Below, one piece after another: positions 7,526 through 35,293 of a stretch of DNA of 44,560 nt (positions within the stretch are counted from its first letter, which is position 1; every line of letters begins with the position of its first letter). Source of the stretch: a virus; IMG/VR virus record IMGVR_UViG_3300026512_000698, positions 1-44,560 of that record; one strand, written 5' to 3'. The notes beneath the pieces were generated by a model. The model searched no databases. It was not told where the DNA came from and saw nothing but the letters and a program-made list of their open reading frames with translations. The position numbers were made by a program, and so were the translations under genes.

Positions 7526-7614
7526 TTTTTAAAATTCTTTGGAAGTACGTTGTTTACGAAGTTTGTAAGTGGTGGGTCCTATGTGACTCGAACACATGAC
7601 CACTCCGTTATGAG
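7526..7614 (-). repeat. Attachment site shared by elements 1 and 2
   Basis: This is the second copy of the 89-bp repeat. Positions 7570-7614 on the minus strand are the tRNA 3' half from the CTCATAA loop to the CCA end. The bases beyond the loop differ from those at the first copy and cannot complete the anticodon stem. This copy is the right end of element 1 and the left end of element 2, which shows tandem insertion at one site. Confidence 0.85.
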
Positions 7615-7764: not shown

Positions 7765-8838
7765 ATGGCAATCAACACAAAAGATTACCCAAATAAAGTT
7801 GAAAACAATTTATGGTCGAACAAGAACTATACTATATTTTTCTATACATTTACATTTGAAAAGAAAAAATATAGAGGCTTAATAGACTTAGCAGATAAAA
7901 TCAAGTGGAATAAAAAAGATAAAATCTTCACAGCTCGTGCTGAACTTATGAAGATTAAAAATGATAAAAAAGAAAATATACTTAATGATGGTATTACTCT
8001 TGATAAGTACATGGATAGTTTCTTTGACTTGCGACCAGATACAAACACCACTAAAAAACTAAAGAGTCATTACAAAAGATATATTAGTGATATATGTGGA
8101 ATGAAAAAACTTGTAGATATTCGTCAGCTTCATATAAAAAGGAGTATTAAGTATCAAGAAGATGTAGGTTTAGCAGCTCGTACTATAAAACAAACTTTAG
8201 AGGTCTTATCTCCAGCATTTAAAAGTGCTATTGCAAATCGTGTTATATCTTTTAATCCTCTTGATGGAATATCTATAAAGCTTCCAAAAACTAAGAAAAT
8301 AGTAAGTGAAGCATCTAAAGAGTTAATAAAAATTCATAAAGCCATATATGAAGAGTTTGCTACTGATCCTTTTTATTTAGCATTCTTCTTATTTGCTTTG
8401 CAAGGTAGAAGAAAGAGTGAGATATTTACTCTCAAGTGGGAAGATGTGAGTATTGACAATTCTTACTACATACTTAGAAACACTAAAAATAATGAAGAGC
8501 AAAAAATATTCTTGTCTGATATAATGAAAAAACAACTTAGCCAAATACCAAAAGTTAGCGAGTGGGTTTTTACATCAAGAAGAACAGGCTCTCATATAGT
8601 AGATGTTAGAAAAAGGGTTGGTAAGTTAAAAACTAGATTAAAAGATGATAGCTTTGGTATACACTACTTAAGAAATGTTATTGTTTCTGCTATGGCGGAG
8701 CAAGGCTTAGAGTCTATGCACTTAAGTGGAGCATTAGGACACAATGACCCAAATACCATAAAAAAATATCTTACTATGAACTATTTAAAATCTAGTGAAA
8801 TTGCTAGTGGGGTTATTGATACTATTGTTGGTAAATAG
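7765..8838 (+). CDS. int: Tyrosine integrase of element 2
   Basis: 357 residues, homologous to the integrase at 854 along its whole length. Catalytic residues are seen in QGRRKSE (Arg), NTKNNEE (Lys), HYLRNV (His, Arg), LGHNDPN (His) and KKYLTM (Tyr). An AGGGA ribosome site is present. It lies directly inside the shared attachment site, pointing into the element. It should insert the large prophage at the same tRNA core used by the satellite. Confidence 0.95.
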   Translation: MAINTKDYPNKVENNLWSNKNYTIFFYTFTFEKKKYRGLIDLADKIKWNKKDKIFTARAELMKIKNDKKENILNDGITLDKYMDSFFDLRPDTNTTKKLKSHYKRYISDICGMKKLVDIRQLHIKRSIKYQEDVGLAARTIKQTLEVLSPAFKSAIANRVISFNPLDGISIKLPKTKKIVSEASKELIKIHKAIYEEFATDPFYLAFFLFALQGRRKSEIFTLKWEDVSIDNSYYILRNTKNNEEQKIFLSDIMKKQLSQIPKVSEWVFTSRRTGSHIVDVRKRVGKLKTRLKDDSFGIHYLRNVIVSAMAEQGLESMHLSGALGHNDPNTIKKYLTMNYLKSSEIASGVIDTIVGK

Positions 8839-8877: not shown

Positions 8878-8950
8878 GCGGTTGTAGCTCAGCGGATAGA
8901 GCACGAATTTCATAAATTCGAGGTCGAGGGTTCAAATCCCTCCAGCATTT
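8878..8950 (+). tRNA. tRNA-like gene, anticodon CAT, imperfect acceptor stem
   Basis: A cloverleaf can be drawn: D stem GCTC/GAGC (8887-8902), anticodon stem CGAAT/ATTCG with loop TTCATAA (8904-8920), variable AGGTC, T stem GAGGG/CCCTC with loop TTCAAAT (8926-8942). Acceptor strands 8878-8884 and 8943-8949 pair at four inner positions, but the outer three are two mismatches and one G-T. No CCA is encoded. CAT could be Met or lysidine-modified Ile. It is either a phage tRNA with a decayed end or a tRNA whose 3' end was replaced. Confidence 0.7.
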
Positions 8951-15409: not shown

Positions 15410-16258
15410 TTATATCTCCTCGATTGTGATTTTGTAATTTATATCGTTTGAGTGATTAATTCTTTGTCCATTTACATCTACACGAATAGCACCCTCAATA
15501 TCTCCCCTGCATATAGAGATAAAAGCACCATCATCATTTTGTGTACCAAATCCATAGCATATAAGTTGTTTTTTCCTTTTACTCATTCTCTTCGCAAATC
15601 CCTCATCACTTTCTGCATTTTTATGTGCAGCTATACCCTCACGAGTAATCTCTTTATTTAAATATTGCTTATATACTTCTTTTTGTATTACCTTGTCTTT
15701 TACTCTTGCTAACTCTTCTAAAACAGACAACCCTATATCATGCTTCGCAACTTCAAGGTCTTTTACTATCTCATCATCTAACTTTAAGCATGAAAAAGCT
15801 TTAGAGATATATGTTTGAGATTTACCAAGAGTATCAGCGAGAGCACCTTTTGTTTCATAGTTACCACTTGCCCAAAGCTTACCAATATGCACAGCAGTTT
15901 CAAATGCTGTTAAATCATCTCTTTGTATATTTTCTATAAGTGATAACTCTAAAACTTTTAGATCATCTTCAACCTCTATGATATGAGCTTTAATAGTAGG
16001 AGCTTGTAACAGCTGGTGTGCTCTATATCTTCTTTCGCCACTTACTATCATGTATCCATCATCTCTTTTGACTACAACGATTGGCTGGAGTAAACCATCT
16101 TGGCTTATCTCTTTAGCAAACTCTTCAAGATTGTTAAAACTCTTTCTAGGTTGTTCTGGATTAGCATACACTTTAGATAGCACCAGTTCTTTAAACGGAC
16201 TCACTCCGTCTATGCGTGTTTTACCACTTACTACGCTGTTAAGCTTGTCTAAGTTCAT
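15410..16258 (-). CDS. parB: ParB-family partition protein
   Basis: 282 residues. The N-terminal ParB/Sulfiredoxin domain is clear: NPEQPRKSF, LLQPIVVVKRDDGYMIVSGE and ERRYRAHQLL (CTP-binding box), then LIENIQRDDLTAFETA. A helix-turn-helix follows (ALADTLGKSQTYISKAFSCL, about 137-158). The C-terminus differs from chromosomal ParB. It should bind a centromere site and spread along DNA to guide segregation by ParA. The gene start overlaps the ParA gene by 20 nt, so the two are coupled. Confidence 0.9.
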   Translation of the reverse strand: MNLDKLNSVVSGKTRIDGVSPFKELVLSKVYANPEQPRKSFNNLEEFAKEISQDGLLQPIVVVKRDDGYMIVSGERRYRAHQLLQAPTIKAHIIEVEDDLKVLELSLIENIQRDDLTAFETAVHIGKLWASGNYETKGALADTLGKSQTYISKAFSCLKLDDEIVKDLEVAKHDIGLSVLEELARVKDKVIQKEVYKQYLNKEITREGIAAHKNAESDEGFAKRMSKRKKQLICYGFGTQNDDGAFISICRGDIEGAIRVDVNGQRINHSNDINYKITIEEI

Positions 16259-16853
16259 CTCTGAGTCCTCTTATCTCATCTTGTGCTATTTTATGTGAAG
16301 TGTCAAATACGCTAGAGCCAACACCAATAGAAGTTCTATATATCTTTCTACTTCGTATAACAGTATCTAGGAGTTCTATGTCTGAGTTATTTTGTATAGC
16401 TTCTTTTATGATGTCAAAGTTTTTAGTAAGTGGGTGTATGTTGTTGAGAACCACATAGGCTTTAGTATCAAGTACCATATCTGTTAGTATATTTTCAAAA
16501 GTTTTAAATCCTAAAACTTCTGTAATGCTATCTGAGATAGGTACTACTACTTTGTTACTCATATCAATAGCTGTTCTGTTGATGTCGCTATCAAAACCAC
16601 CAACATCAACTATGGTGTAGTCTGTTTGTTTTTTTGGCTTTAACAGTACTTGCATAACTTCTGCTACTGTTTTAGGTTGAAGTACTTCAATAGAATCAAC
16701 ACCACGAATTTCATTTATAAAAAATAATGTTTGTTGAAAATCTAAATCTACCAAAGTAACTGTTTTACCAAGCTCTCTAAATGCAAATGCTAAGTTCCAA
16801 GCTATTGTGCTTTTTCCAACACCGCCCTTTGTGTGTCCTACTGTAATAATCAT
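16239..16853 (-). CDS. parA: ParA-family partition ATPase
   Basis: 204 residues, the short form without an N-terminal DNA-binding domain. Deviant Walker A is HTKGGVGKST (7-16), Walker A' VDLDFQQT (35-42) and Walker B TIVDVGG. These ATPases form gradients on the nucleoid and move ParB-bound DNA. With parB downstream it makes a complete partition operon. Its promoter contains the 15-bp box found before the structural operons and a TTAAGTGGTA inverted repeat. A partition operon in a prophage indicates extrachromosomal maintenance. Confidence 0.92.
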   Translation of the reverse strand: MIITVGHTKGGVGKSTIAWNLAFAFRELGKTVTLVDLDFQQTLFFINEIRGVDSIEVLQPKTVAEVMQVLLKPKKQTDYTIVDVGGFDSDINRTAIDMSNKVVVPISDSITEVLGFKTFENILTDMVLDTKAYVVLNNIHPLTKNFDIIKEAIQNNSDIELLDTVIRSRKIYRTSIGVGSSVFDTSHKIAQDEIRGLRDELRQA

Positions 16854-21075: not shown

Positions 21076-21300
21076 ATGGAAAATAATTTTGAAACAGTAG
21101 AATTTATACTACCTGTAGCAAAGCCTGAGTTAGCGGAAATACTACAAGTATCAGTTGTAACTATTGATAGGCTCATAGCTGCTAAGAAGTTACCTCACTT
21201 ACGAGTAGGAACATCTATTAGATTTACTAAAGCTAACATAGAAGAGTTTATTTCAACAAATACTAGAGACTCAAAAAAAACAAATAACGGCGAAAATTAA
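21076..21300 (+). CDS. Excisionase/Cro-type HTH protein
   Basis: 74 residues. VAKPELAEILQVSVVTIDRLIAAKKLPHLRVGTSIRFTKANIEEFI is a textbook HTH_17 (Xis/AlpA/MerR-like) domain: helix-turn-helix, wing and a last helix. First gene of the right arm, so it is a candidate Cro-like switch or excisionase. Its TAATG end couples it to the next gene. Confidence 0.78.
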   Translation: MENNFETVEFILPVAKPELAEILQVSVVTIDRLIAAKKLPHLRVGTSIRFTKANIEEFISTNTRDSKKTNNGEN

Positions 21301-21929
21301 TGACTTACACTATGCTTCTCAATTTAGAGAAAATTAATGAATGGGACTTAAGTAAGACTACTTGTTTTGTTATGGGTGTATTTGCTGATTTAGAAAGTTG
21401 GGCTATAAAATATAAAACAAATAACGGCGAAAATGATGATTTTTATTATTTACTTTATCGAAACAAAATACTTAAAGATTTACCTTTTTTAGGTTCAAAG
21501 AGTTCTATATCTCGTTCGATTAAAGAACTAGAAGATAAGGGTATTATAAAATCAATCAATAAACATTCTAATCCTGCATACTGCTTAACTGAAAAAGGGC
21601 TAACATGGAAAAGAAATTCTACATCTAGTGAACCAACTCAAAAGCAAATTACACCTAAAACTAAAAAAAGTACATTATCACTTACAAAAAAACAAAGATT
21701 TGATGATGCTCCTTTGGAATATCAAAAACTAGTGTATCAAAAAGCTAATGAACATTGTAAGGCTAATAATATAGACACAAACGAAGTTCAAAAATGTATA
21801 GACTGGCATGTCTCAAAAGGAAATACTTTTGTAAATTGGTTAAGTGCATTTAGGACATGGTGTAGAAATTTGAAAAAATACAATCCAAATGATGGCGATA
21901 ACACAACTTTAGGTGGTATGAGTTTATGA
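21300..21929 (+). CDS. Putative replication initiator, winged-helix protein
   Basis: 209 residues. The N-terminal half is winged-helix-like (LGSKSSISRSIKELEDKGII, followed by AYCLTEKG). After a Ser/Thr/Lys linker (about 105-135) the C-terminal part ends FVNWLSAFRTWCRNL, like the DnaT/DUF-type domain of phage replisome organisers and of O-like proteins that load the helicase. With the DnaB-like gene downstream this suggests an initiator or helicase loader. The assignment is by pattern and context. Confidence 0.65.
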   Translation: MTYTMLLNLEKINEWDLSKTTCFVMGVFADLESWAIKYKTNNGENDDFYYLLYRNKILKDLPFLGSKSSISRSIKELEDKGIIKSINKHSNPAYCLTEKGLTWKRNSTSSEPTQKQITPKTKKSTLSLTKKQRFDDAPLEYQKLVYQKANEHCKANNIDTNEVQKCIDWHVSKGNTFVNWLSAFRTWCRNLKKYNPNDGDNTTLGGMSL

Positions 21930-22366: not shown

Positions 22367-22563
22367 TGCAAAATTCACAATGGTTAAATACTAAAACACT
22401 ACAAGAAGAGTTTGGAATAGCAGAGAGTACTCAAGCAAAGTATCGTGCTGAAAAAACTATACCCTACTCTAAGATAGGTGGGTTTATATTTTATTCCCGC
22501 GAGAAAATATACCAATGGTTAGAGAGACATAGTTTTGAAGCGGAGGGTTTAGTTTATGAATAA
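22366..22563 (+). CDS. AlpA-like HTH protein, homolog of the satellite regulator
   Basis: 65 residues: WLNTKTLQEEFGIAESTQAK, YRAEKTIPYSKIGGFIFYSREKIYQWL. The layout and several blocks (PxSKIG, YxRE, WL) match the 64-residue protein at 2816. It overlaps the helicase gene by 8 nt. It may be an excisionase or transcription switch. Confidence 0.75.
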   Translation: MQNSQWLNTKTLQEEFGIAESTQAKYRAEKTIPYSKIGGFIFYSREKIYQWLERHSFEAEGLVYE

Positions 22564-23905
22564 TATAGAAAATATCAGAGTATTAGTTCTTGCGTCATTA
22601 TTGACTGTTAATGAATTTGGAGCAATTGACTTAAATATAGTTATGTCAAGTGGGATAAATAAAGAGTTCTTTGAAGATGAATCTCAAAGGGTTATGTTTG
22701 AAGTGATTAGCGTTTGCTATGAGGGAAATATTACTTATGATGATGGTATTATCATGAACTATATGAAAAAAGCAGGGATATCAAATCCTGAAAATATAGT
22801 ACTTAATATTATGGCTCAAAAACAAGTACCTCAAAATACACTCTTAGAATATATAGCATTTTTAAAAGAGTCCTACCATAAAAAAATGCTTCATGTGTTA
22901 AATTCAGAAATAGCAAATATGCTTCAAGATGAAAATCTAAGTGCTGATGCAATTACTCAAACTATGCAAAATACAATAGATGGTTATGCCAGTTTAACTA
23001 AAGGTAATTCTACTAAAAGATTAAGTGAAGTTAGAAAACTAAGAAAACTACAGCCCCCAGCTCAAAGGATTAGAACATACATACCTTTTATTGACACGGT
23101 TCTTACTGATAAGCATGGAGGTAAGGGTATTAGAAATGAGGGTTTATTTTTCATAAGTGGTAAAAAACAAAGTGGTAAAACTTTTGTTCTCACAAGACTT
23201 ATAGAGAATGTGTCGAGAGAGCATCCTGTAATGTTTGGAAGTATGGAATTTGGACAAGATTTATATGATGAAAATATAGAACAACAACAAGAAGATAAAC
23301 ATTTTGAGGGAAACATAGAAAATATATTTACCTTTGATGATATTTATGATGTTAATGCCATTATGGCTGAGATAAGACTTCAACATAAGCTTTATGGAAT
23401 TAAGTTAGTTGCTCTTGATAGTATGATGAGAATGACAAATAATAATCCTGACCTTAAAACAGATGAACGAAGAATATCTGAGATGTTTTCAAAACTTGGA
23501 AAACTTTCAAAAGAGTTAAAGATCCCAATTATTGTAGTAGTACAGTCATCTAAAGAGGATTTAAAATCGAGCATAATTAGTGTTAAGGGGAGTATGAACG
23601 CAGACCATGAGGCTTATGTATGGTTTCATCTTTCAAAAACAAAACCTAAAGAACCTGATGATGAGATGAGAAATGTTGTATGGAATAAAAATAAAGATAC
23701 TCATAAGCACCCTATTCAAACTTTAATGTTTGTTCCACAAACAAGTGATTTTTATAGAGTTGAATTAGATGAACATGGTAATGCTGGTAAAGCCCTTGAT
23801 AAATTTAGAAAACCACCTGTAAAAGTAGTTGAAACAACTTATGAAACTATACCTAGTAATCAAGACCAAGGCACTCAAGATACTTTTGATATGCCCCAAT
23901 TTTAG
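22556..23905 (+). CDS. DnaB-like replicative helicase
   Basis: 449 residues. An N-terminal DnaB-type helical domain (about 1-120) is followed by a RecA-like ATPase: Walker A ISGKKQSGKTF (about 200-210), a Glu-containing strand GSMEFGQ, and Walker B LVALDSMMRM (about 284-293). SSKEDLKSSIISVKGS resembles the DnaB motif that follows the sensor. It should unwind DNA at the fork, in partnership with the primase at 11976. A low-complexity tail is rich in Thr, Gln and Pro. Confidence 0.85.
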   Translation: MNNIENIRVLVLASLLTVNEFGAIDLNIVMSSGINKEFFEDESQRVMFEVISVCYEGNITYDDGIIMNYMKKAGISNPENIVLNIMAQKQVPQNTLLEYIAFLKESYHKKMLHVLNSEIANMLQDENLSADAITQTMQNTIDGYASLTKGNSTKRLSEVRKLRKLQPPAQRIRTYIPFIDTVLTDKHGGKGIRNEGLFFISGKKQSGKTFVLTRLIENVSREHPVMFGSMEFGQDLYDENIEQQQEDKHFEGNIENIFTFDDIYDVNAIMAEIRLQHKLYGIKLVALDSMMRMTNNNPDLKTDERRISEMFSKLGKLSKELKIPIIVVVQSSKEDLKSSIISVKGSMNADHEAYVWFHLSKTKPKEPDDEMRNVVWNKNKDTHKHPIQTLMFVPQTSDFYRVELDEHGNAGKALDKFRKPPVKVVETTYETIPSNQDQGTQDTFDMPQF

Positions 23906-23983: not shown

Positions 23984-24847
23984 ATGAAAATTAAAAAGAT
24001 AAATGCACATACAGTTAAACTAGATGGACAAGAGTTATCACTAAATGATAGTGAGAAAATAGTTAAAAAAGCTGGTACTGACTACTATATCCATAAAAAT
24101 AAAAAACAAGATGAGTTTATTATTTCAGAAAATAAAAAACTTAAAATGTATAAACTAGTTGGTGGTTTTCACTATGGTCTTATTCCTGAAGAGTTTACAA
24201 CTATAAACAATATTAGCAAAAAATCCTCTAAAAAAATAGCTGGTATAAATCACTACTCTATCTGGAGTAAAAAACATAGACCACTATGTGAACCAGAAGG
24301 GATGGTATTTATTCCTAAACTAAAGATTTGGATAGATATATATCTGCTAAATGCAGACCATAAAGTAAATGGCTCATCAAAAGCTAATGCGATTATAGCT
24401 AGTGGAGATAATTACAATGGTAGAAAAATACCAGTAGATGAAGAAGACTTAAAAGGTAATGTTGTAGATGCCATTGCTTCACATCATAATAAAAGACTAC
24501 TGACTCAAAAAGAGTTTAGAAAAGCTATGTATGGTGTAAAAGAAGGTTTGAGTGCTGAGGACTTAGATGATGGAACAACTAAACATATAAAAGACTTTGT
24601 ATCAAGATACGGGATAGAACAAGCAACTGGTGTTCAATGGATATGGAGTAAAGATTTATATAATTCTAGTGATAAGTTAAGGGTGCTTTTGGGTGGCGCT
24701 CGTGGCAGTGGCGTGCACGCAGGTTCTCGTGCCTCGGATTGGAGCTACTATGTTTGGAACTCGTACTGGGACATTGGTGTGCGTCTGTCATGTGACATGA
24801 AACTTAAAAATGAAGCGAAAGCGAATTTAAAGACAAAGGATAAATAA
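23984..24847 (+). CDS. DGR variable protein 1 (C-type-lectin-like domain)
   Basis: 287 residues, homologous through most of its length to the last 300 residues of the fibre at 27556 (shared AGTDYY, GGFHYGL, YGIEQATGVQWIW). The variable segment (about residues 233-270: LLGGARGSGVHAGSRASDW ... WDIGVRLSCD) is the end of a CLec/formylglycine-enzyme-like fold used by DGR target proteins. It has no fibre stalk. It lies between helicase and SSB-like genes, about 5 kb from the retroelement, and joins the next gene by TAATG. Likely a displayed binding protein; the partner is unknown. Confidence 0.85.
   Translation: MKIKKINAHTVKLDGQELSLNDSEKIVKKAGTDYYIHKNKKQDEFIISENKKLKMYKLVGGFHYGLIPEEFTTINNISKKSSKKIAGINHYSIWSKKHRPLCEPEGMVFIPKLKIWIDIYLLNADHKVNGSSKANAIIASGDNYNGRKIPVDEEDLKGNVVDAIASHHNKRLLTQKEFRKAMYGVKEGLSAEDLDDGTTKHIKDFVSRYGIEQATGVQWIWSKDLYNSSDKLRVLLGGARGSGVHAGSRASDWSYYVWNSYWDIGVRLSCDMKLKNEAKANLKTKDK
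24682..24794 (+). repeat. DGR variable repeat 1 (VR1)
   Basis: 113 bp aligned without gaps to the template repeat (29834-29946). Ten differences are at template adenines (A to T, G or C). One, near the 3' end (TCG to TCA), is not. Eight of the nine template Asn codons have changed (to Ala, Ser, His, Asp, Ser, Tyr, Tyr, Asp). Confidence 0.95.
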
Positions 24848-25407
24848 TGGCAAACATAGGAATAGTTTATAGAGATAGTTATAAAAAAGAGGGTAAAGAT
24901 ATACCTATAATCATGTTAGATATTCGTACTATTAGTATTAGAAAAAAGTTTACTATCAGTGTAAATAAAAATAAATATCCTGATGGTGTAGTTAATGATA
25001 ATATAGTACAGGGTAAAGAAGACTATCCTGATTATCATATTTGGTGCAATATGGCAAATCGTGGAGAGACTGGAAGAAGTGAAATAGTTGGAAGTATTAA
25101 AGATGCTGTTGCTGAGGGTAGCGGACTCAAATATAAAAGATGTAAAATATTTGACCCTTTTATCTCTGAAAAAAACATATATTTTACTTTATTTAGTGTT
25201 GATGAAGATAAAAAAAGAGATGCTTCTCATGTTTATAATGTTGTGGCTCAACCATATCAAAAACCACAAAGTGAGTATAACAATACTCAAAATGAACAAA
25301 CAGCACAGCCTAGCTATGATGGACAAAATATTCCAACTACATACGAAACAGTAGATAAAAACAGTGTACCAAGTATAGATGTTGATGAAGATGAGATTCC
25401 ATTTTAG
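24847..25407 (+). CDS. SSB-like single-stranded DNA-binding protein
   Basis: 186 residues. The N-terminal part could form an OB fold but is divergent. A Gln/Asn/Pro-rich linker (about 135-170) leads to the tip DEDEIPF, which is the classic acidic SSB C-terminus that recruits replication proteins. It would protect single strands during phage replication. It is coupled by TAATG to the variable protein gene upstream. Confidence 0.75.
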   Translation: MANIGIVYRDSYKKEGKDIPIIMLDIRTISIRKKFTISVNKNKYPDGVVNDNIVQGKEDYPDYHIWCNMANRGETGRSEIVGSIKDAVAEGSGLKYKRCKIFDPFISEKNIYFTLFSVDEDKKRDASHVYNVVAQPYQKPQSEYNNTQNEQTAQPSYDGQNIPTTYETVDKNSVPSIDVDEDEIPF

Positions 25408-25417
25408 GTTTTAACAA

Positions 25418-26971
25418 ATGAATGAAATACAAAAAGCTTTAGCTGCTAAAAAAGCAGAACCTATACGACATGCTTTATGTCGTAAGGATTTACTTCATTA
25501 TGGTCGTTATATATTTGAAAAAGAATATGAAACTCCACTTCTTGAAGCATGGTATCACGAGCTACTATGTAATGCATTGATGAAAGTAGCTCACGGAGAA
25601 GTCACTAGACTTATTATAAACATACCACCAGCCTATGGAAAAACAGAGTTTGCAGTAAGACTTTTTGTGTCTTGGTATCTTGGTAATTTTCCAAAAAAAA
25701 GAGTTATTTATACATCATATAGTGATGACTTAGCTACTAAAACACCTGCCGAAGTTAAAGAACTTATCGTATCTCCATCTTATAAAAAAGTATTTAATAA
25801 TATTAGTCTAGGTAGAAAAACAGCAGATAAAGAGTGGTATTTAGAGTCTAAGGGTGGTATGTTTTCTACTACTGTTGGTGGAGGTATTACAGGTTTTCAC
25901 GGGAATATAGTGATAATAGATGATCCAATGAAAGCGATAGAGAAAAACTCTAAAGCTACAAGAGACTTAGTTACTAATTTTTATAAAGGTTCTATTACTT
26001 CAAGACTTAGAAAAGATGACCCTAACTCTGCCATAATAGTTATTATGCAAAGGCTACATGAAGATGACTTAGTTGGGTATCTACTTGAAGAGGAGCAAGA
26101 TATATGGACTCATATAAATCTAACAGGGATAAACCCTAAAGAAACTATATATGATTTTTTTGATTATTACTACAAGCGTGAAGCGTATGAGCCTTTGAAC
26201 CCTCACTTTGAAACAGTGCAAAAGCTGGAACAACAAAAAAAAGTAATGAAAGAAGATTGGTATTCTCAATATATGCAAGACCCTAGAACTATTGAGACTG
26301 GGTATGTAAGTGATAGTGATTTTGTTAGTATAGCTTCGTGGGAACTTAGTGAGGATAATAAATGTATCAGCATTGACCCTGCTCAATCAACAAAACAAAC
26401 AAGTGATAATAGAGCCATATCTTTAGTTGGAGTAGCACTTTCCCCCGAGAAAATAGAGCTATTTAATGTTTACGGAACATGGTTTGGAAAATGGGGTAAT
26501 GAAGAATTTATAGAACAAATCATACAAGTAATGATTGAAAATAGTGGTGTACCTGTATTTATGGAAAGCAGTGGTGGTGGTATTATTACAGAACAATATC
26601 TCAAAAAAGAGATACAAAAAGTAAATTACAAACTTAAAACTGAGGGTAAATCTATCCTTACCAATAGAGTTACCTTATTTAATCCAAAAACAAAAATAAG
26701 TAAAAATCAAAAAATTGACCAAAGTATTACATGTCTGCAAAATCATCAAATTCGCTTTGTTGTTGGGGGTCATGGTCAAGAACAAGTAAAAAAAGAGTAT
26801 CTAGGGTTTCATCCAGAAAAAGATTCTAAAGAAGATGACTGTATGGAAACTATTGCTAATGTAGTTGTAAATAATTTTGTATCTCCAAAAACTAAACCCA
26901 AAGATAAAACTATCAACAATCCAAGCGTTATGAGAAATTTTACTCAAAGAAGAATTGGTTGGAGAATTTAA
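25418..26971 (+). CDS. terL: Terminase large subunit
   Basis: 517 residues. ATPase domain: Walker A NIPPAYGKTEF (about 68-78), Walker B IVIIDDPMK (about 164-172), coupling motif after SAIIVIMQRLHEDDL. The RNase H-like nuclease domain starts at ISIDPAQST with Asp near 320. It cuts and pumps DNA into the prohead. No adjacent small subunit is recognised; the expected slot upstream holds SSB-like and DGR target genes. The 31-bp late-promoter element begins at its stop codon. Confidence 0.93.
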   Translation: MNEIQKALAAKKAEPIRHALCRKDLLHYGRYIFEKEYETPLLEAWYHELLCNALMKVAHGEVTRLIINIPPAYGKTEFAVRLFVSWYLGNFPKKRVIYTSYSDDLATKTPAEVKELIVSPSYKKVFNNISLGRKTADKEWYLESKGGMFSTTVGGGITGFHGNIVIIDDPMKAIEKNSKATRDLVTNFYKGSITSRLRKDDPNSAIIVIMQRLHEDDLVGYLLEEEQDIWTHINLTGINPKETIYDFFDYYYKREAYEPLNPHFETVQKLEQQKKVMKEDWYSQYMQDPRTIETGYVSDSDFVSIASWELSEDNKCISIDPAQSTKQTSDNRAISLVGVALSPEKIELFNVYGTWFGKWGNEEFIEQIIQVMIENSGVPVFMESSGGGIITEQYLKKEIQKVNYKLKTEGKSILTNRVTLFNPKTKISKNQKIDQSITCLQNHQIRFVVGGHGQEQVKKEYLGFHPEKDSKEDDCMETIANVVVNNFVSPKTKPKDKTINNPSVMRNFTQRRIGWRI

Positions 26972-27018
26972 AACTACCAAATAGACATACCACTTAACAC
27001 TTTTTAAAAAGCTAAAAT
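26968..27018 (+). promoter_or_regulatory. Structural-operon promoter 1 with 15-bp box
   Basis: A 31-bp sequence (26968-26998) is identical to 35243-35273. It ends in GACATACCACTTAAC (26984-26998); exactly 14 nt later comes the -10 hexamer TAAAAT (27013-27018). The box replaces the normal -35. It drives the 27047 gene and the DGR/fibre unit. Confidence 0.7.
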
Positions 27019-27046
27019 TGTTTTCATAATCAAATCAAGGAATTTT

Positions 27047-27553
27047 ATGAGAACTGTATCTATTGACATCTCTAAACTAAGACTAAATGTTGGGGATAAA
27101 ATAACGATACAGTTGATAAACAGTATCGGTGACTTAGCTACAACTATTGATGGATATTCACTTGATGAAGAAATAACTTTAGATAGTGTTTTTTCAAAAG
27201 AGTTGATGCCAACTCAAGATATAGATTTTATATCAACCTATAAGTTGATATTTCCAAATGCTTCATACATAAACTTCATTGTACCAAGTACGAACACTAC
27301 TGCTCATGACTTATTATCTCTATTTAAAATGCCATGTACTGATGGGGTTATTAATAAAGACAACTCTCTAAGCAATAGTTTTATAGCAAAGTTGGATTTA
27401 TACTTAATAGGTGAAAGTCCAAATTTTAATGCTAATGAATTAAATATAGTAAAGCTATATGAATATTTTGCAGATGAAATTATATCTGATACCACCAAAA
27501 CAATAGACATCATGGAAGTGATGGATAAATACTTAACAACAATAGGAGTTTAA
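27047..27553 (+). CDS. Putative virion protein upstream of the fibre
   Basis: 168 residues. The first 80 residues are beta-rich (TVSIDISKLRLNVGDKITIQL), the rest helical. It begins the DGR/fibre transcription unit and ends 2 nt before the fibre gene. It could be a fibre-attachment or baseplate-like protein. Not recognised. Confidence 0.6.
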   Translation: MRTVSIDISKLRLNVGDKITIQLINSIGDLATTIDGYSLDEEITLDSVFSKELMPTQDIDFISTYKLIFPNASYINFIVPSTNTTAHDLLSLFKMPCTDGVINKDNSLSNSFIAKLDLYLIGESPNFNANELNIVKLYEYFADEIISDTTKTIDIMEVMDKYLTTIGV

Positions 27554-27555
27554 CA

Positions 27556-29454
27556 ATGGGTTTTATACAAAATATGAATGAGCTTTATCTATCTTTAGAT
27601 AAATTACTTTTGCTTCACGATAGTCTTGGAACTATTTCTTTAACTGATAAACAACTTGCAGATATAGCAAATATTCAGAACAATATAGATGTAGTCACTT
27701 CGGTAAATGATAATAATGCAGATATAACTGTTGTTGCTCAAAATCTTGCTGATATTATAAATGCTAGTAAAATAATAAACATGACTGTCTCTACTGGTGC
27801 TACTGGAACTTCAGTTTCATGGGATGCAAATACTTCTGTTTTGACTGTTCCTATTGGCGCTACTGGTGCAACTGGAAATAGTGGTCAAGATGGCAACGAT
27901 GGTATAAATGGCTTAGATGTAGACCATGTTTCTAAAACAGACGGAACAGGAGAAAGTGGTACTACTGACACATACACTTTATGGCAAGACTCAGATGAAA
28001 CTGTATCACTTGGGACTTTTGAAGTTTACAATGGTGCTGATGGTGACGGTGCTGGTGACATGTCGAAAGACACATACGATACTAGTGATAGTGGAGTAGT
28101 TGATAACTCTGAAAAAGTAAATGGACTTACTGTAGAAACTGCTGTGCCAGAAAATGCAGTTTTTACAGATACAGTTACTTCTCTAGTTGATGCTCTTGAC
28201 TCAAGTTCAACATCAGAAGCATTAACTGCCAATCAAGGATTAGTTCTAAAAGGATTGATCGATAACCTAAATAGTTTAATAGCAAGTGATGATACAACTC
28301 TTGATGATTTACAAGAGATAGTTGATTTTATAAAAATAAATAAAGATACTTTAGATTCTTTAGCAATTGCTAGTATATCTGGTTTATCTGATGCCCTTGA
28401 TGCCAAGATGGATGCAGATGCAGTATCATCATCTGTTGATTTTAAAAAACCTAATACTAATGTTCTTTTTACAAAAACAAACCCAGCTGATTTCACTATA
28501 GCAGTAGGTTTTAAAGTTACAGTTGGAACTACTGCCGTAGAGATAACAGAAGAACAAACACTAAGTTTAGATGACAATCTTGATACAGGGACAAAAGAGG
28601 CTGGTACTGACTACTATGTTTATGCAAAAGCAGATAGTACATTTTATATTAGTGCTGATAAAACTATAACAGCTGATAGACTTATTGGTGGTTTTCATTA
28701 TGGTTTAACCGCTGAAGATGAAGCAAAAACTGGAAATAAAACAGATAATGATATGGTCGCTATTCGTGGTATTAACAAATATTCATTTTGGGATTTGAAG
28801 TTTAAGGCTATTGCTGGAAATGATGGAATGGCATTAGTTGGCACTAAGTGGTATGACATATATTTAACAAATAGTGAGCATATCACAAAGGGTACTTCAA
28901 AAGCTGGATTACTTATATCTGGTGGTACTACAGATAACGGTCGTGGAGTTCCAAAAATACCATTAGCTTATGGTGGTGATGGAGATGTTGATTATGGAAA
29001 GCTGACTTGGTTTCAAGTTTGTGAGATTGCTAAATCACACGGTAAAGAACTTATAGACTATGCAGAATTTCCAACTATTGCCTATGGTGTTGATGAGGGC
29101 AAATCATCTGATACTGATGACTATGAAACAACTGCTGGAAAAATTGAACACTACTCTCATCTTACTTCAAAATTTGGTATTGAGCAAGCTACTGGGGTTC
29201 AGTGGATTTGGGGTAAAGATGTTGGCGGTAACAGAGATGAAGATAGTACATCATGGGGATGGAGAGACAAAGCAGATTCAAGAGGTCAAATATATGCACT
29301 TCATGATAATCACATTACGGCGGTGCTGTTGGGTGGCCATCGTGGCAATGGCGTGCACGCAGGTTCTCGTGCCTCGGTTTGGAACTACTATGTTTGGAAC
29401 TCGAACTGGCTCATTGGTGTGCGTCTGTCGTGTGCCCACATGGAACTTGTGTAG
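27556..29454 (+). CDS. DGR variable protein 2: collagen-containing fibre
   Basis: 632 residues. Order: helical N-terminal segment for virion attachment (1-80), collagen-like G-x-y stretch (GATGATGNSGQDGNDGING, about 101-119), a Ser/Thr/Asp-rich shaft with a helical segment (about 205-285), then from about 345 the domain shared with variable protein 1, ending in the variable CLec segment (587-626). The architecture is that of a receptor-binding fibre whose tip is diversified. The avd gene follows in the same transcript. Confidence 0.9.
   Translation: MGFIQNMNELYLSLDKLLLLHDSLGTISLTDKQLADIANIQNNIDVVTSVNDNNADITVVAQNLADIINASKIINMTVSTGATGTSVSWDANTSVLTVPIGATGATGNSGQDGNDGINGLDVDHVSKTDGTGESGTTDTYTLWQDSDETVSLGTFEVYNGADGDGAGDMSKDTYDTSDSGVVDNSEKVNGLTVETAVPENAVFTDTVTSLVDALDSSSTSEALTANQGLVLKGLIDNLNSLIASDDTTLDDLQEIVDFIKINKDTLDSLAIASISGLSDALDAKMDADAVSSSVDFKKPNTNVLFTKTNPADFTIAVGFKVTVGTTAVEITEEQTLSLDDNLDTGTKEAGTDYYVYAKADSTFYISADKTITADRLIGGFHYGLTAEDEAKTGNKTDNDMVAIRGINKYSFWDLKFKAIAGNDGMALVGTKWYDIYLTNSEHITKGTSKAGLLISGGTTDNGRGVPKIPLAYGGDGDVDYGKLTWFQVCEIAKSHGKELIDYAEFPTIAYGVDEGKSSDTDDYETTAGKIEHYSHLTSKFGIEQATGVQWIWGKDVGGNRDEDSTSWGWRDKADSRGQIYALHDNHITAVLLGGHRGNGVHAGSRASVWNYYVWNSNWLIGVRLSCAHMELV
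29314..29434 (+). repeat. DGR variable repeat 2 (VR2)
   Basis: 121 bp aligned without gaps to the template 29826-29946. Nine differences, all at template adenines, including two silent third positions. Five of nine template Asn codons have changed (to His, His, Val, Tyr, Leu). The 3' end (GTGCGTCTGTCGTGTG) is identical to the template. Confidence 0.96.
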
Positions 29455-29472
29455 AGTGAGCGGAAGCGAACG

Positions 29473-29808
29473 ATGAATGATTCTAAGAATTTGATTATTA
29501 TTGAAAAGTATGAAAGCTTTTTAAATTACATCTACCCTCATTTACAACATATACCGAGGAAACATGGAATTTTAAAAGAAAGAATTATTTTAATAGTTTT
29601 TGAACAAACAGAATTATTTTACAAAGCTATAAAATCTAACCAAAAAAGTAAACTATATGAAGCAGATGCAAATTTAGCAAGTATTAGATACTACCTTAGA
29701 TTTTTAGCTGATGAAAAAAGAAAACTTATAAGTCAAAAGCAACACAATACTGCTGGTGTAAAACTAGCAGAAGTTGGTAAGATTTTAAATAGTTGGATAA
29801 AAAAATGA
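29473..29808 (+). CDS. avd: Avd, DGR accessory variability determinant
   Basis: 111 residues, all helical, with the sequence character of Avd four-helix bundles: IIEKYESFLNYIYPHL, IPRKHGILKERIILIVFEQT, a basic helix and RYYLRFLADEKRKLI, ending GVKLAEVGKILNSWI. Avd forms a positively charged pentameric barrel that binds the reverse transcriptase and template RNA. It sits between VR2 and the template repeat, the standard place. Confidence 0.88.
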   Translation: MNDSKNLIIIEKYESFLNYIYPHLQHIPRKHGILKERIILIVFEQTELFYKAIKSNQKSKLYEADANLASIRYYLRFLADEKRKLISQKQHNTAGVKLAEVGKILNSWIKK

Positions 29809-29825
29809 GTTTATGGGCGAGTAAG

Positions 29826-29946
29826 ATTACAGCGGTGCTATTGGGTGGCAATCGTGGCAATGGCGTGAACGCAGGTTCTCGTGCCTCGAATTGGAACAAC
29901 TATGTTTGGAACTCGAACTGGAACATTGGTGTGCGTCTGTCGTGTG
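29826..29946 (+). repeat. DGR template repeat (TR)
   Basis: This 121-bp segment is the adenine-rich donor for VR1 and VR2. It has nine AAC or AAT codons in the reading frame of the target proteins, set where the binding surface varies. It lies 17 nt after avd and about 170 nt before the likely start of the reverse transcriptase. Its 3' flank (after GTGTG) differs from the flanks of both variable repeats, which marks it as donor rather than acceptor. Confidence 0.96.
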
Positions 29947-30113
29947 AGTATAAGATATGGATATTGCTCTCATATATAGTTACGGCTTATATGGAGCGAC
30001 CTTATAAAATATGGTCAGCTTACTTGTCCAGCGAAAGCAAATACATTGAGAGGTCTGTAAAAGTTGGAGTAGCTTTAATAGTGAAAGAACAAGACAGCAT
30101 TAAAAGGTATATA

Positions 30114-31130
30114 GTGGGTAAAAAATACAAGATATTATTTGAAAAGATAATTGATATAGATAACTTAAGATTAGCATATAAAAAAGCTTTAAAAGGTGGC
30201 AATAGATATACAACTAGTCATCTAAAGTTTAAAGAGAACTTAGAGGCAAATTTATCTCTACTACAGGCACAGCTTGAGAGTGGAGTATATAGACATGGAA
30301 ACTATCATACATTTCTTGTATATGAGCCTAAAGAGAGATTAATTGCATCACTTCCATTTAGAGATAGAGTAGCACAACATGCTATCAACAATATTGTTGA
30401 GCCTATTTTTGAGAGCATGTTTTACTCAACATCTTATGCTTGTAGAAGCAATAAAGGCACACATAAAGGTGTTAAAGCCGTTCAAGCTAAGATAAGAAAA
30501 TTAGATAATGATGGAAGTGTGTATTATCTAAAGATGGACTTTAGTAAGTATTTTCATTCTATAAATACGGATATATTATTTAGAGAAATATCTAAAAAAA
30601 TTAGTGATGTAAAAGTGCTTAATCTTCTTAAAGGGTTTGTTAGTATTGACTCTAAGGGTATCCCTATTGGAAACTTACTTAGTCAATTATTTGCAAATAT
30701 ATATGGACATATCTTTGATAGATTTGTTAAAACAAAACTAAAAGCTAGATACTACTTTAGATATATGGACGACACGGTTATCTTAAGTAACTGTAAAAAA
30801 GAACTTGTTTTGTATCAACAGAAACTATACTTATTTATAAAGTTATTTATGAAATTAAAGTTTAGTAAGTGGTATATAAATGCAATATCTAAACCTTTAA
30901 ACTTTTTAGGTTATAGGATTTCACAAAATTATAAACTCATAAGAAAAGATAGTGTTGTTCGTGCAAAGCGAAAGATAAAAAGATATAAAAAAATAGATGA
31001 TGTACTAAGTTTAAAGCTATTTCTAGCTTCATGGCGTGGACACTTACGAAGTGCCGATAGTTGGAACTTAGTTAAATTTATAAACAAAGAGGAGCAATTA
31101 TGCAAGATGAAATTAGCGTTAAGCCGTTAG
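30114..31130 (+). CDS. DGR reverse transcriptase
   Basis: 338 residues from the GTG at 30114, which has an AAAGG ribosome site 7 nt upstream and gives the usual DGR-RT N-terminus (KKYKILFEKIIDIDNLRLAY). The frame is open back to 29793, straight through the template repeat; an ATG at 29991 is another option. Motifs: catalytic Asp142 in LKMDFSKYF, DGR-type IGNLLSQ (185-191), YMDD (217-220), GYRIS thumb-side motif. It copies template RNA, misincorporating at adenines, and the cDNA replaces VR1 or VR2. Confidence 0.95.
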   Translation: MGKKYKILFEKIIDIDNLRLAYKKALKGGNRYTTSHLKFKENLEANLSLLQAQLESGVYRHGNYHTFLVYEPKERLIASLPFRDRVAQHAINNIVEPIFESMFYSTSYACRSNKGTHKGVKAVQAKIRKLDNDGSVYYLKMDFSKYFHSINTDILFREISKKISDVKVLNLLKGFVSIDSKGIPIGNLLSQLFANIYGHIFDRFVKTKLKARYYFRYMDDTVILSNCKKELVLYQQKLYLFIKLFMKLKFSKWYINAISKPLNFLGYRISQNYKLIRKDSVVRAKRKIKRYKKIDDVLSLKLFLASWRGHLRSADSWNLVKFINKEEQLCKMKLALSR

Positions 31131-31537
31131 TAGATGTATTAAGTGAACAGTTGGGTAAAACTATTGTAATGAGAGGGAGTGAATATGTAGATTTAGTAAC
31201 TCTTAGTACTTTAAGTCAAAGTGATGTGGATGAGGCTTTAGCTGAACAGCAAAGACTTTTAGATGTTGATATATTAGCATTACAACAAGATGGGTTTAAC
31301 AATGCAATTCAAAAACACTTAGACACGCAAGCACAAAGTCTTAGATATGACAACATAAATGCTATTGGTAAGTATGTTGGTTATGCGAACGACTTTCAAG
31401 CTGAAGCTGAAGCACTGGGTGCTTGGGCTAGTTCTTGTTGGAAAGTTGCTGGAGAGATTGAAGCAGATGTAAAAGCTGGGAATATAGATATGCCTACAGT
31501 TGATACAGTATTGGCAGAATTGCCAGATTATGAATAG
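31100..31537 (+). CDS. Putative tail-fibre assembly/structural protein
   Basis: 145 residues, overlapping the reverse transcriptase end by 31 nt, with a GAGGAG ribosome site. The C-terminal half (QKHLDTQAQSLRYDNINAI, YVGYANDFQAEAEALGAWAS, WKVAGEI) resembles domains found in phage fibre-assembly proteins (DUF4376-like). It may help fold the variable fibre. Tentative. Confidence 0.6.
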   Translation: MQDEISVKPLVDVLSEQLGKTIVMRGSEYVDLVTLSTLSQSDVDEALAEQQRLLDVDILALQQDGFNNAIQKHLDTQAQSLRYDNINAIGKYVGYANDFQAEAEALGAWASSCWKVAGEIEADVKAGNIDMPTVDTVLAELPDYE

Positions 31538-31545
31538 TAGAAATT

Positions 31546-31773
31546 ATGACAAAGCAAGAGATGATAGCTAAGTTTGAAGATGATACAAGTAAGAGGAGTA
31601 GGATAATGCGTCTACTCCTCGTCCTTGACCAACTAGGGAATGTAGTATTTTTTAACGGAAGTCAAGATGAAACTATATCAAGCCATATCGGAAGAACAGG
31701 TAAAGCTAAGTGGCTATGTAAGATTTTACAAAAATTAGAGAGTAAACATTGCTTAAAGAGCTTGGGAGAATAA
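31546..31773 (+). CDS. Small conserved phage protein
   Basis: 75 residues. Pattern LDQLGNVVFFNGSQDETISSHIGR followed by a helical end with His and Cys is one I have seen in small proteins near phage lysis genes, with no known function. It lies 8 nt after its neighbour and 3 nt before the next gene. Confidence 0.6.
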   Translation: MTKQEMIAKFEDDTSKRSRIMRLLLVLDQLGNVVFFNGSQDETISSHIGRTGKAKWLCKILQKLESKHCLKSLGE

Positions 31774-31776
31774 AAT

Positions 31777-32361
31777 ATGACAGATGATGTAATGAAAGAC
31801 TTAGTTACTAAGCATGATGCAACTATAACACAGTTAGTTGCTAGTGTTGAGCATCTAGTTAGTTCACAAGCTGAGACAAATACACAGCTAAAAGATATCA
31901 GTAAGTACTTAGCTAAACAAGCAGTATTTAGTACTCGATTTGACAGTATGGACAAAGAACTTACTGATAGCTTTAAGAGGGTACATCGTCGTATTGATGA
32001 GATTGATGATATACAAAAGAATGAGAGCGGTTGCAATAGCGTGAGACTACTAACCAAAGATATAGAATCACTAACTAAAGACACTATCAGACTTGTAGGG
32101 CTTAGTGAAGACCATAGACTAAGTATAGAAGCACTCCAAAAAGTTCAGAGTAACTACCCAAGTTCTGGAGCTATTAGATGGGGTGTAGGTATAGTAATAC
32201 TTTATGTTGTAACATTTGGAACTTATGTAGTTCAATCGTTAAACATATTATCTAATACAGAAGTAAAGATTACGGCTCTTGTAGAAAGAGACATAGTAGA
32301 CATAGATAGATTAACAATAAAAGTAGAAAAATTAGTAGATAAAATGATGAAGGATAAATAA
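31777..32361 (+). CDS. Coiled-coil membrane protein of the lysis region
   Basis: 194 residues. A long coiled coil (about 1-115) precedes one transmembrane helix (WGVGIVILYVVTFGTYVVQSL, about 130-150) and a short helical tail. It couples to the endolysin by TAATG. It could be a spanin- or holin-like lysis factor, or a virion protein. Position favours lysis. Confidence 0.6.
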   Translation: MTDDVMKDLVTKHDATITQLVASVEHLVSSQAETNTQLKDISKYLAKQAVFSTRFDSMDKELTDSFKRVHRRIDEIDDIQKNESGCNSVRLLTKDIESLTKDTIRLVGLSEDHRLSIEALQKVQSNYPSSGAIRWGVGIVILYVVTFGTYVVQSLNILSNTEVKITALVERDIVDIDRLTIKVEKLVDKMMKDK

Positions 32362-35242: not shown

Positions 35243-35293
35243 TTAAAACTACCAAATAGACATACCACTTAACCCATTTTTTCTCACTACAAT
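35243..35293 (+). promoter_or_regulatory. Structural-operon promoter 2 with 15-bp box
   Basis: The 31 bp at 35243-35273 are identical to 26968-26998 and end in GACATACCACTTAAC (35259-35273). Exactly 14 nt later is TACAAT (35288-35293) as -10. It drives the capsid/portal operon. Confidence 0.7.

Follow-up and report, generated by a model that had tools for sequence, protein, structure and literature searches.

A diversity-generating retroelement with one template and two targets in a phage genome: a tail fibre and a stand-alone Mtd-like protein encoded among replication genes

The sequence analysed here at its whole length, hereafter the window, is the 44,560-nucleotide (nt) virus record IMGVR_UViG_3300026512_000698 of IMG/VR, whose source is probably a temperate phage of Sulfurimonas-like bacteria. 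The window carries a diversity-generating retroelement (DGR) with a single template repeat (TR) and two variable repeats (VR1 and VR2), all on the plus strand. Along this strand lie the gene of a stand-alone Mtd-like DGR target of 287 amino acids (aa), which bears VR1 (gene, 23984-24847; VR1, 24682-24794); the gene of a 632-aa tail fibre with a C-terminal Mtd-like tip, which bears VR2 (gene, 27556-29454; VR2, 29314-29434); the gene of the 111-aa accessory protein Avd (29473-29808); the TR (29826-29946); a DGR RNA in the spacer that follows (29967-30098); and the gene of a 338-aa reverse transcriptase (RT; 30114-31130, from a GTG).

The coordinates of the three repeats and their gap-free alignment, as proposed in an initial annotation of this sequence, were reproduced to the base. 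Across 121 aligned nt, TR and VR2 display 9 differences, all at TR adenines, and VR1, aligned over 113 nt to TR positions 29834-29946, displays 11, with 10 of them at TR adenines. The compared TR stretches hold 25 adenines for VR2 and 22 for VR1, and random placement of the differences would produce such a bias with P = 1.8e-7 and P = 1.0e-7, respectively. Changes at C, G and T are thus far from being as frequent as those at A, with one non-adenine difference in the 234 bases aligned for both VRs. This sole exception is a G to A change in VR1 at TR position 117, four bases before the 3' end of the repeat; homing leaves the target sequence in place beyond the information-transfer boundary at that end. 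When the TR is read in the frame of the VRs, the adenine changes fall mostly in Asn codons (7/9 in VR2 and 9/10 in VR1) and no frameshift is present in either repeat, in agreement with what had been noted. Furthermore, adenines 15, 25 and 97 are changed in both VRs and to different bases, which indicates that the two repeats, separated by about 4.6 kb, are not copies of one another.

The remaining components of the cassette were also found. The RT contains GIPIGNLLSQ and YMDD, as expected for the DGR clade and as the initial annotation had pointed out; profile searches matched it to PF00078 (E = 8.4e-20) and PHROG 1423 (E = 1.3e-102), and it is 43.5% identical to brt of phage BPP-1 over 96% of the query. 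The product of the gene upstream of the TR, earlier called Avd-like, matched PF22296 (bAvd, E = 5.6e-34) and PHROG 3206 (Avd). The TR-RT spacer matched the full model (1-127) of Rfam RF03022, Phage_DGR, with 81.4 bits (E = 1.7e-12; gathering score, 50), and 17 sequences align throughout this stretch with a mean column identity of 71%. The open frame of the RT extends upstream through this RNA, and a TR-RT fusion protein was considered and dropped: the frame is closed or shifted in most relatives, the stretch corresponds to the Rfam DGR RNA, and the RTs of relatives start with an MGKKYK-like sequence (148-211 nt 3' of the TR in 22 of the 24 loci compared), a comparison that placed the RT start of the window at GTG 30114.

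In BPP-1, homing requires a hairpin with a GRNA loop located 3' of the VR (PMC3240598). A search for hairpins with perfect stems gave no match for most VRs of the window's clade, and these were recovered when a tandem GA/GA pair was allowed in the stem. In the common architecture, placed 6-29 nt 3' of the VRs, an outer stem is followed inwards by the tandem GA/GA and then by two further base pairs that close a GNNA loop; it scored above threshold at 30 of 38 VRs, none of 12 TRs and 0.5% of shuffled sequences. Covariation of the paired bases scored 0.92, compared with 0.32 after shuffling, and sliding the pairing partners abolishes the signal; this covarying variant constitutes an addition to known target hairpins. 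In the window, VR2 is followed by the strict pattern with a GRNA loop (29456-29471; GT-GA-GC, loop GGAA, GC-GA-AC), while the hairpin of VR1, read from the sequence and located within the coding sequence (24808-24828; AAATGA-A-GC, loop GAAA, GC-GA-ATTT), carries one extra A and for this reason scored under the strict scan pattern; the same bulged variant is present in two relatives, L164 and G242. No hairpin follows the TR, and therefore both VRs, and not the TR, appear to be true homing targets. With RT, Avd, DGR RNA, adenine-biased VRs and VR-specific hairpins all present, every feature that can be tested in a sequence agrees with the initial claim that the DGR is complete and related in type to that of BPP-1, and the machinery itself is ordinary. 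The accompanying claim, that the system is or was recently active, has indirect support, from the intact genes and from VRs that track their own TRs even though the gene bodies belong to one old clade (see below).

The two targets belong to different functional modules, tail and replication. The 632-aa fibre matched PF21916 (E = 3.3e-15), a fibre-repeat profile and the tail families PHROG 11262 and 19602. The 287-aa protein also matched PF21916 (mtd_2nd, E = 7.3e-6) and PHROG 11262 (tail protein, E = 1.6e-43); its AlphaFold2 model (pLDDT 90.7) found as best folds in the PDB only Mtd variants (1yu0-1yu4; probability 1.0, TMq 0.73), and it carries the C-type-lectin domain of Mtd with the VR near the C-terminus (profile E = 1e-99 and below). 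The N-terminal beta-prism or virion-attaching part, or a fusion to a fibre, was not found in it: residue 54 aligns to Mtd residue 134, so about 80 N-terminal Mtd residues are absent, profile search revealed no fibre repeats, and no effector domain was recognised. At the DNA level, the stand-alone and fibre genes share the VR core and, elsewhere, short similar stretches only.

The stand-alone gene lies outside the structural module, between a gene for a DnaB-like replicative helicase (22556-23905; PF03796, E = 3.7e-10; PHROG 19, E = 6.6e-22) and an SSB-like gene (24847-25407), both on the same strand, and it overlaps the latter by one base, the last of its stop codon (gap -1). The SSB-like label relies on an acidic C-terminal tail, DVDEDEIPF, and no Pfam or PHROG match was obtained for this protein. 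The large terminase subunit gene follows (25418-26971, plus strand; PHROG 38, E = 2.1e-81), and the SSB-like gene is kept beside it in L011, L164 and G242. The neighbours are thus replication genes rather than defence or counter-defence genes: PADLOC gave no match for the VR1 target, the helicase or the SSB-like protein, and weak matches only for a 209-aa protein at 21300-21929. A scan for sigma-70 promoters and terminators detected fewer promoter-like sites than in shuffled sequences.

Homologue searches with the 287-aa protein identified eight more members, so that nine genomes including the window carry the stand-alone gene: L164, G027 (a Sulfurimonas metagenome-assembled genome, MAG), G242, G091, G016, G006, L190 and, as a partial sequence, G028 (an Arcobacteraceae MAG). 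One further candidate, L165, was rejected as it encodes a 499-aa protein of the fibre type. The order DnaB, target, SSB is found in the window, L164 and G242, and G091, a prophage within a 192-kb contig, displays DnaB, target, DnaQ and SSB. In G027 a CII-like regulator gene (PF06892) lies three bases upstream of the target and a replication gene lies downstream; in G006 the target adjoins clamp-like and SSB-like genes; in G016 it stands between an integrase gene and DnaQ; in G028 it is upstream of DnaG; and in L190 it belongs to an early gene cluster with exonuclease- and SSB-like genes (the names clamp-like, DnaQ-like and, in some cases, SSB-like were assigned by sequence reading and similarity to genes of the window). 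A same-strand neighbour overlaps the target or lies within 4 nt of it in 6 of the 9 genomes. In L011, a phage of the same type that does not carry the gene, DnaB is directly followed by SSB, so the stand-alone target is an accessory gene that has been gained or lost. Frameshifts interrupt the RT and DnaB genes of the G242 prophage (L250, 4131-5164 and 12395-13739); errors of assembly or sequencing are their most likely cause, and decay of the prophage is a possible one.

In a tree built outside the VR, the eight full-length stand-alone genes form one clade apart from 29 fibre-type sequences, with full support for the separating branch (SH-aLRT 100, UFBoot 100); the branch of F_G242 is artefactually long, probably owing to the way in which its fragment was translated. 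The clade has its own conserved insertions and deletions, the frame is intact in every full-length member, and dN/dS outside the VR ranges from about 0.18 to 0.27 between close pairs, which indicates purifying selection. Conversely, the VRs follow the local template. Among the seven genomes with a locatable TR (the window and six others), the stand-alone VR differs from its own TR at adenines in 10/11 positions in the window, 7/7 in G027, 11/11 in G091, 7/7 in G016, 12/12 in G006, 8/8 in G028 and 7/13 in G242, or 62/69 when pooled; the six non-adenine differences of G242 all fall within the last 20 bases of the repeat. The fibre VRs of these genomes display 70 of 73 differences at TR adenines. 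In G027 and G028 the target and the cassette are on different contigs of the MAG, and their match, differing at adenines only, argues that they belong together. Repeated homing would be expected to produce just this combination, an old gene body whose VR keeps to the template of its own genome.

The placement of a second VR was further surveyed by scanning 14 annotated DGR phages, a small sample picked by RT similarity, for repeats with adenine-biased differences (the scan covered part of BPP-1, and all but a few kb of Toutatis and of Dulem virus 37). A second VR was found in 6 of the 14, in all six outside the virion module (the module of nd12 is poorly annotated). It lies in gp40 of Lagaffe, which overlaps an exonuclease gene followed by Gam, ERF and SSB (11/11 differences at A); in gp24 of Toutatis (13/14); in orf43 of Shimadzu, adjoining Erf and SSB (15/15); in a coding sequence of nd4 that overlaps a DNA polymerase III gene (9/10); in the coding sequence 31285-32178 of nd12 (13/13); and in a second lectin gene of Dulem virus 37, near a Lar restriction-alleviation gene (16/20). 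These second targets correspond to L258 31798-33060, L259 6506-7153, L262 32976-33605, L267 30965-31669, L270 31285-32178 and L271 30448-31593, and their modules are non-structural and mostly of replication or recombination. Lagaffe gp40 runs about 118 aa beyond its VR.

We lean, with slightly better than even confidence, towards an explanation in which one template RNA serves two targets, and the VR1 protein is an early product, absent from the virion, that binds variable partners inside the cell. By extension from BPP-1, RT and Avd would make cDNA from the TR RNA and misincorporate at random opposite adenines, and, following established DGR biology, the cDNA would replace VR1 or VR2 at the sites marked by the hairpins. 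Changes in VR2 would vary the tail-fibre tip, and hence host range, as in BPP-1, while changes in VR1 would vary a free-standing Mtd-like binder co-encoded with the helicase and SSB genes. Early synthesis is suggested by gene position and tight gene packing, and absence from the virion by the missing attachment parts; in an infected cell or a lysogen, the partners may be components of host defence or of competing phages. The broader proposal, that temperate phages repeatedly evolve a virion-free, early-expressed copy of a DGR lectin as a reprogrammable recognition device inside the cell, for counter-defence or exclusion of competing phages, is plausible and advanced tentatively, at somewhat below an even chance; a single template RNA would then diversify host entry and also a function within the cell.

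Several observations weigh against this explanation. The early expression attributed to the VR1 gene rests on its gene neighbourhood, and the gene is on the strand of the late genes, one gene upstream of the terminase. An unfused protein may still be part of the virion, because the Mtd of BPP-1 is itself a separate protein held non-covalently by the tail. Four longer members (L019, L182, L190 and L252) have an N-terminal extension of 50-70 aa, modelled with low confidence as beta-beta-alpha (first 60 codons of the L019 gene 13889-14914), which could act as an anchor; no family match was obtained for the extension, and the window member does not carry it. Finally, tandem targets adjacent to the cassette exist in L023 and L024, so the location of a second target outside the virion module is a tendency only. 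These points bring forward the main rival, in which both targets bind receptors from the virion and the stand-alone protein is a second, non-covalent tail tip whose locus reflects phage mosaicism. The Mtd fold and the PHROG assignment of the 287-aa protein as a tail protein agree with it, as does the separate mtd gene of BPP-1, and receptor binding is assumed for second targets by the authors of PMC10743442. We nevertheless regard it as rather unlikely: the protein has neither a fibre nor the first 80 or so residues of Mtd, nine genomes have its gene within operons for replication or lysogeny, where it often overlaps early neighbours, and the same separation recurs in six further two-target phages.

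The stand-alone gene might also be no more than an archive or by-product, a duplicated tip that homing continues to overwrite by virtue of its remaining target hairpin and that would at most donate sequence to the fibre gene by recombination. Since homing needs homology and a hairpin only (PMC3240598), rewriting would go on even in a silent copy, and the VR cores of both genes can in principle recombine; the purifying selection on the gene body, the ancient single clade with its own indels and intact frames, and the restriction of similarity outside the VR core to short DNA stretches make such a role very improbable. Even less credible is a decayed remnant with a historical adenine pattern, as RT, Avd, DGR RNA, hairpins and both target frames are intact and a single non-adenine difference has accumulated, even though near-identity searches of phage records returned no close relative of the window virus and the exact VR/TR core was not found elsewhere in IMG/VR.

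Phage DGRs are explained as a means of switching tropism through variation of the tail tip. That one template also rewrites a conserved target without a fibre, located in replication operons, suggests a second and barely examined use of targeted hypermutation by phages. Moreover, a defined gene family that includes prophages of assembled bacterial genomes (G091 and G242, both placed in the family of a Sulfurimonas MAG) makes the role of a non-structural DGR target testable.

Other features of the window were noted as well. An 89-bp direct repeat that seems to include the 3' part of a tRNA occurs at 622-710 and 7526-7614, and a tyrosine integrase gene comes after each copy (854-1909 and 7765-8838, 46% identical); the arrangement resembles a 6.9-kb integrated element, a satellite or remnant, that abuts the phage. 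A tRNA at 8878-8950 was matched by Rfam and missed by ARAGORN. Partition genes of the ParB and ParA kind are present at 15410-16853, and also at 13643-15029 of L181, a contig of a Sulfurimonas MAG with a stand-alone target; some of these phages may therefore exist as plasmid-like prophages at one stage. An exact 31-bp direct repeat, TTAAAACTACCAAATAGACATACCACTTAAC, is located just 3' of the terminase gene (26968-26998) and just 3' of a gene encoding 356 aa (35243-35273), and is perhaps a common regulatory site.

Compared with known systems, the window shares with the BPP-1 DGR the order mtd-avd-TR-brt, Avd, the DGR RNA, adenine mutagenesis, a target of the Mtd fold, a hairpin with a GRNA loop 3' of the VR and an RT of the identity given above. 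However, BPP-1 has one VR and the window two; mtd is a separate gene in BPP-1, whereas fibre and Mtd tip form one protein in the window; and the hairpin stem, plain and of 7-10 bp in BPP-1, is interrupted by the tandem GA/GA in most of the window's clade. The bacterial antigen-sensor targets (PNAS 2024, PMC10907252), as far as the accessible portion of that article describes them, provide a precedent, being DGR-varied proteins of conflict systems and not phage receptor binders; these are cellular, in contrast to the 287-aa protein, in which no effector domain is recognisable.

Two-target phage DGRs have already been described, in the gut phages nd4 and nd12 (PMC10743442) and Lelie/CP11/Lagaffe_CP (PMC11792537). 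These share with the window one TR and two VRs in two proteins of the C-lectin type, in unrelated hosts and mostly with other lectin subfamilies. In nd4, Lagaffe, Toutatis and Shimadzu, the second VR has early genes as neighbours, among them genes for DNA polymerase, exonuclease, ERF and SSB, and no remark on an early location appears in the accessible text of these two articles. The searchable literature (subscription papers, figures and supplements excepted) contains no description of the stand-alone family or of its recurrent placement in replication operons. The general idea of a non-structural second DGR target is prior art, as Benler et al. (2021) stress for Quimbyvirus a second target of this type among defence-related genes (PMC8008677). 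Quimbyvirus and the window share one DGR with two C-type-lectin targets, one near the tail genes and the other distal and non-structural (PMC8008677). They differ in that the second target of Quimbyvirus is encoded on the opposite strand, with methyltransferase and nuclease genes and others related to defence around it, while that of the window lies in a replication operon; in that the RT, split over three frames in Quimbyvirus, is intact in the window; and in that the stand-alone gene of the window represents a family conserved in nine phage genomes. The new aspect of the window is thus its unusual second target and not its cassette.

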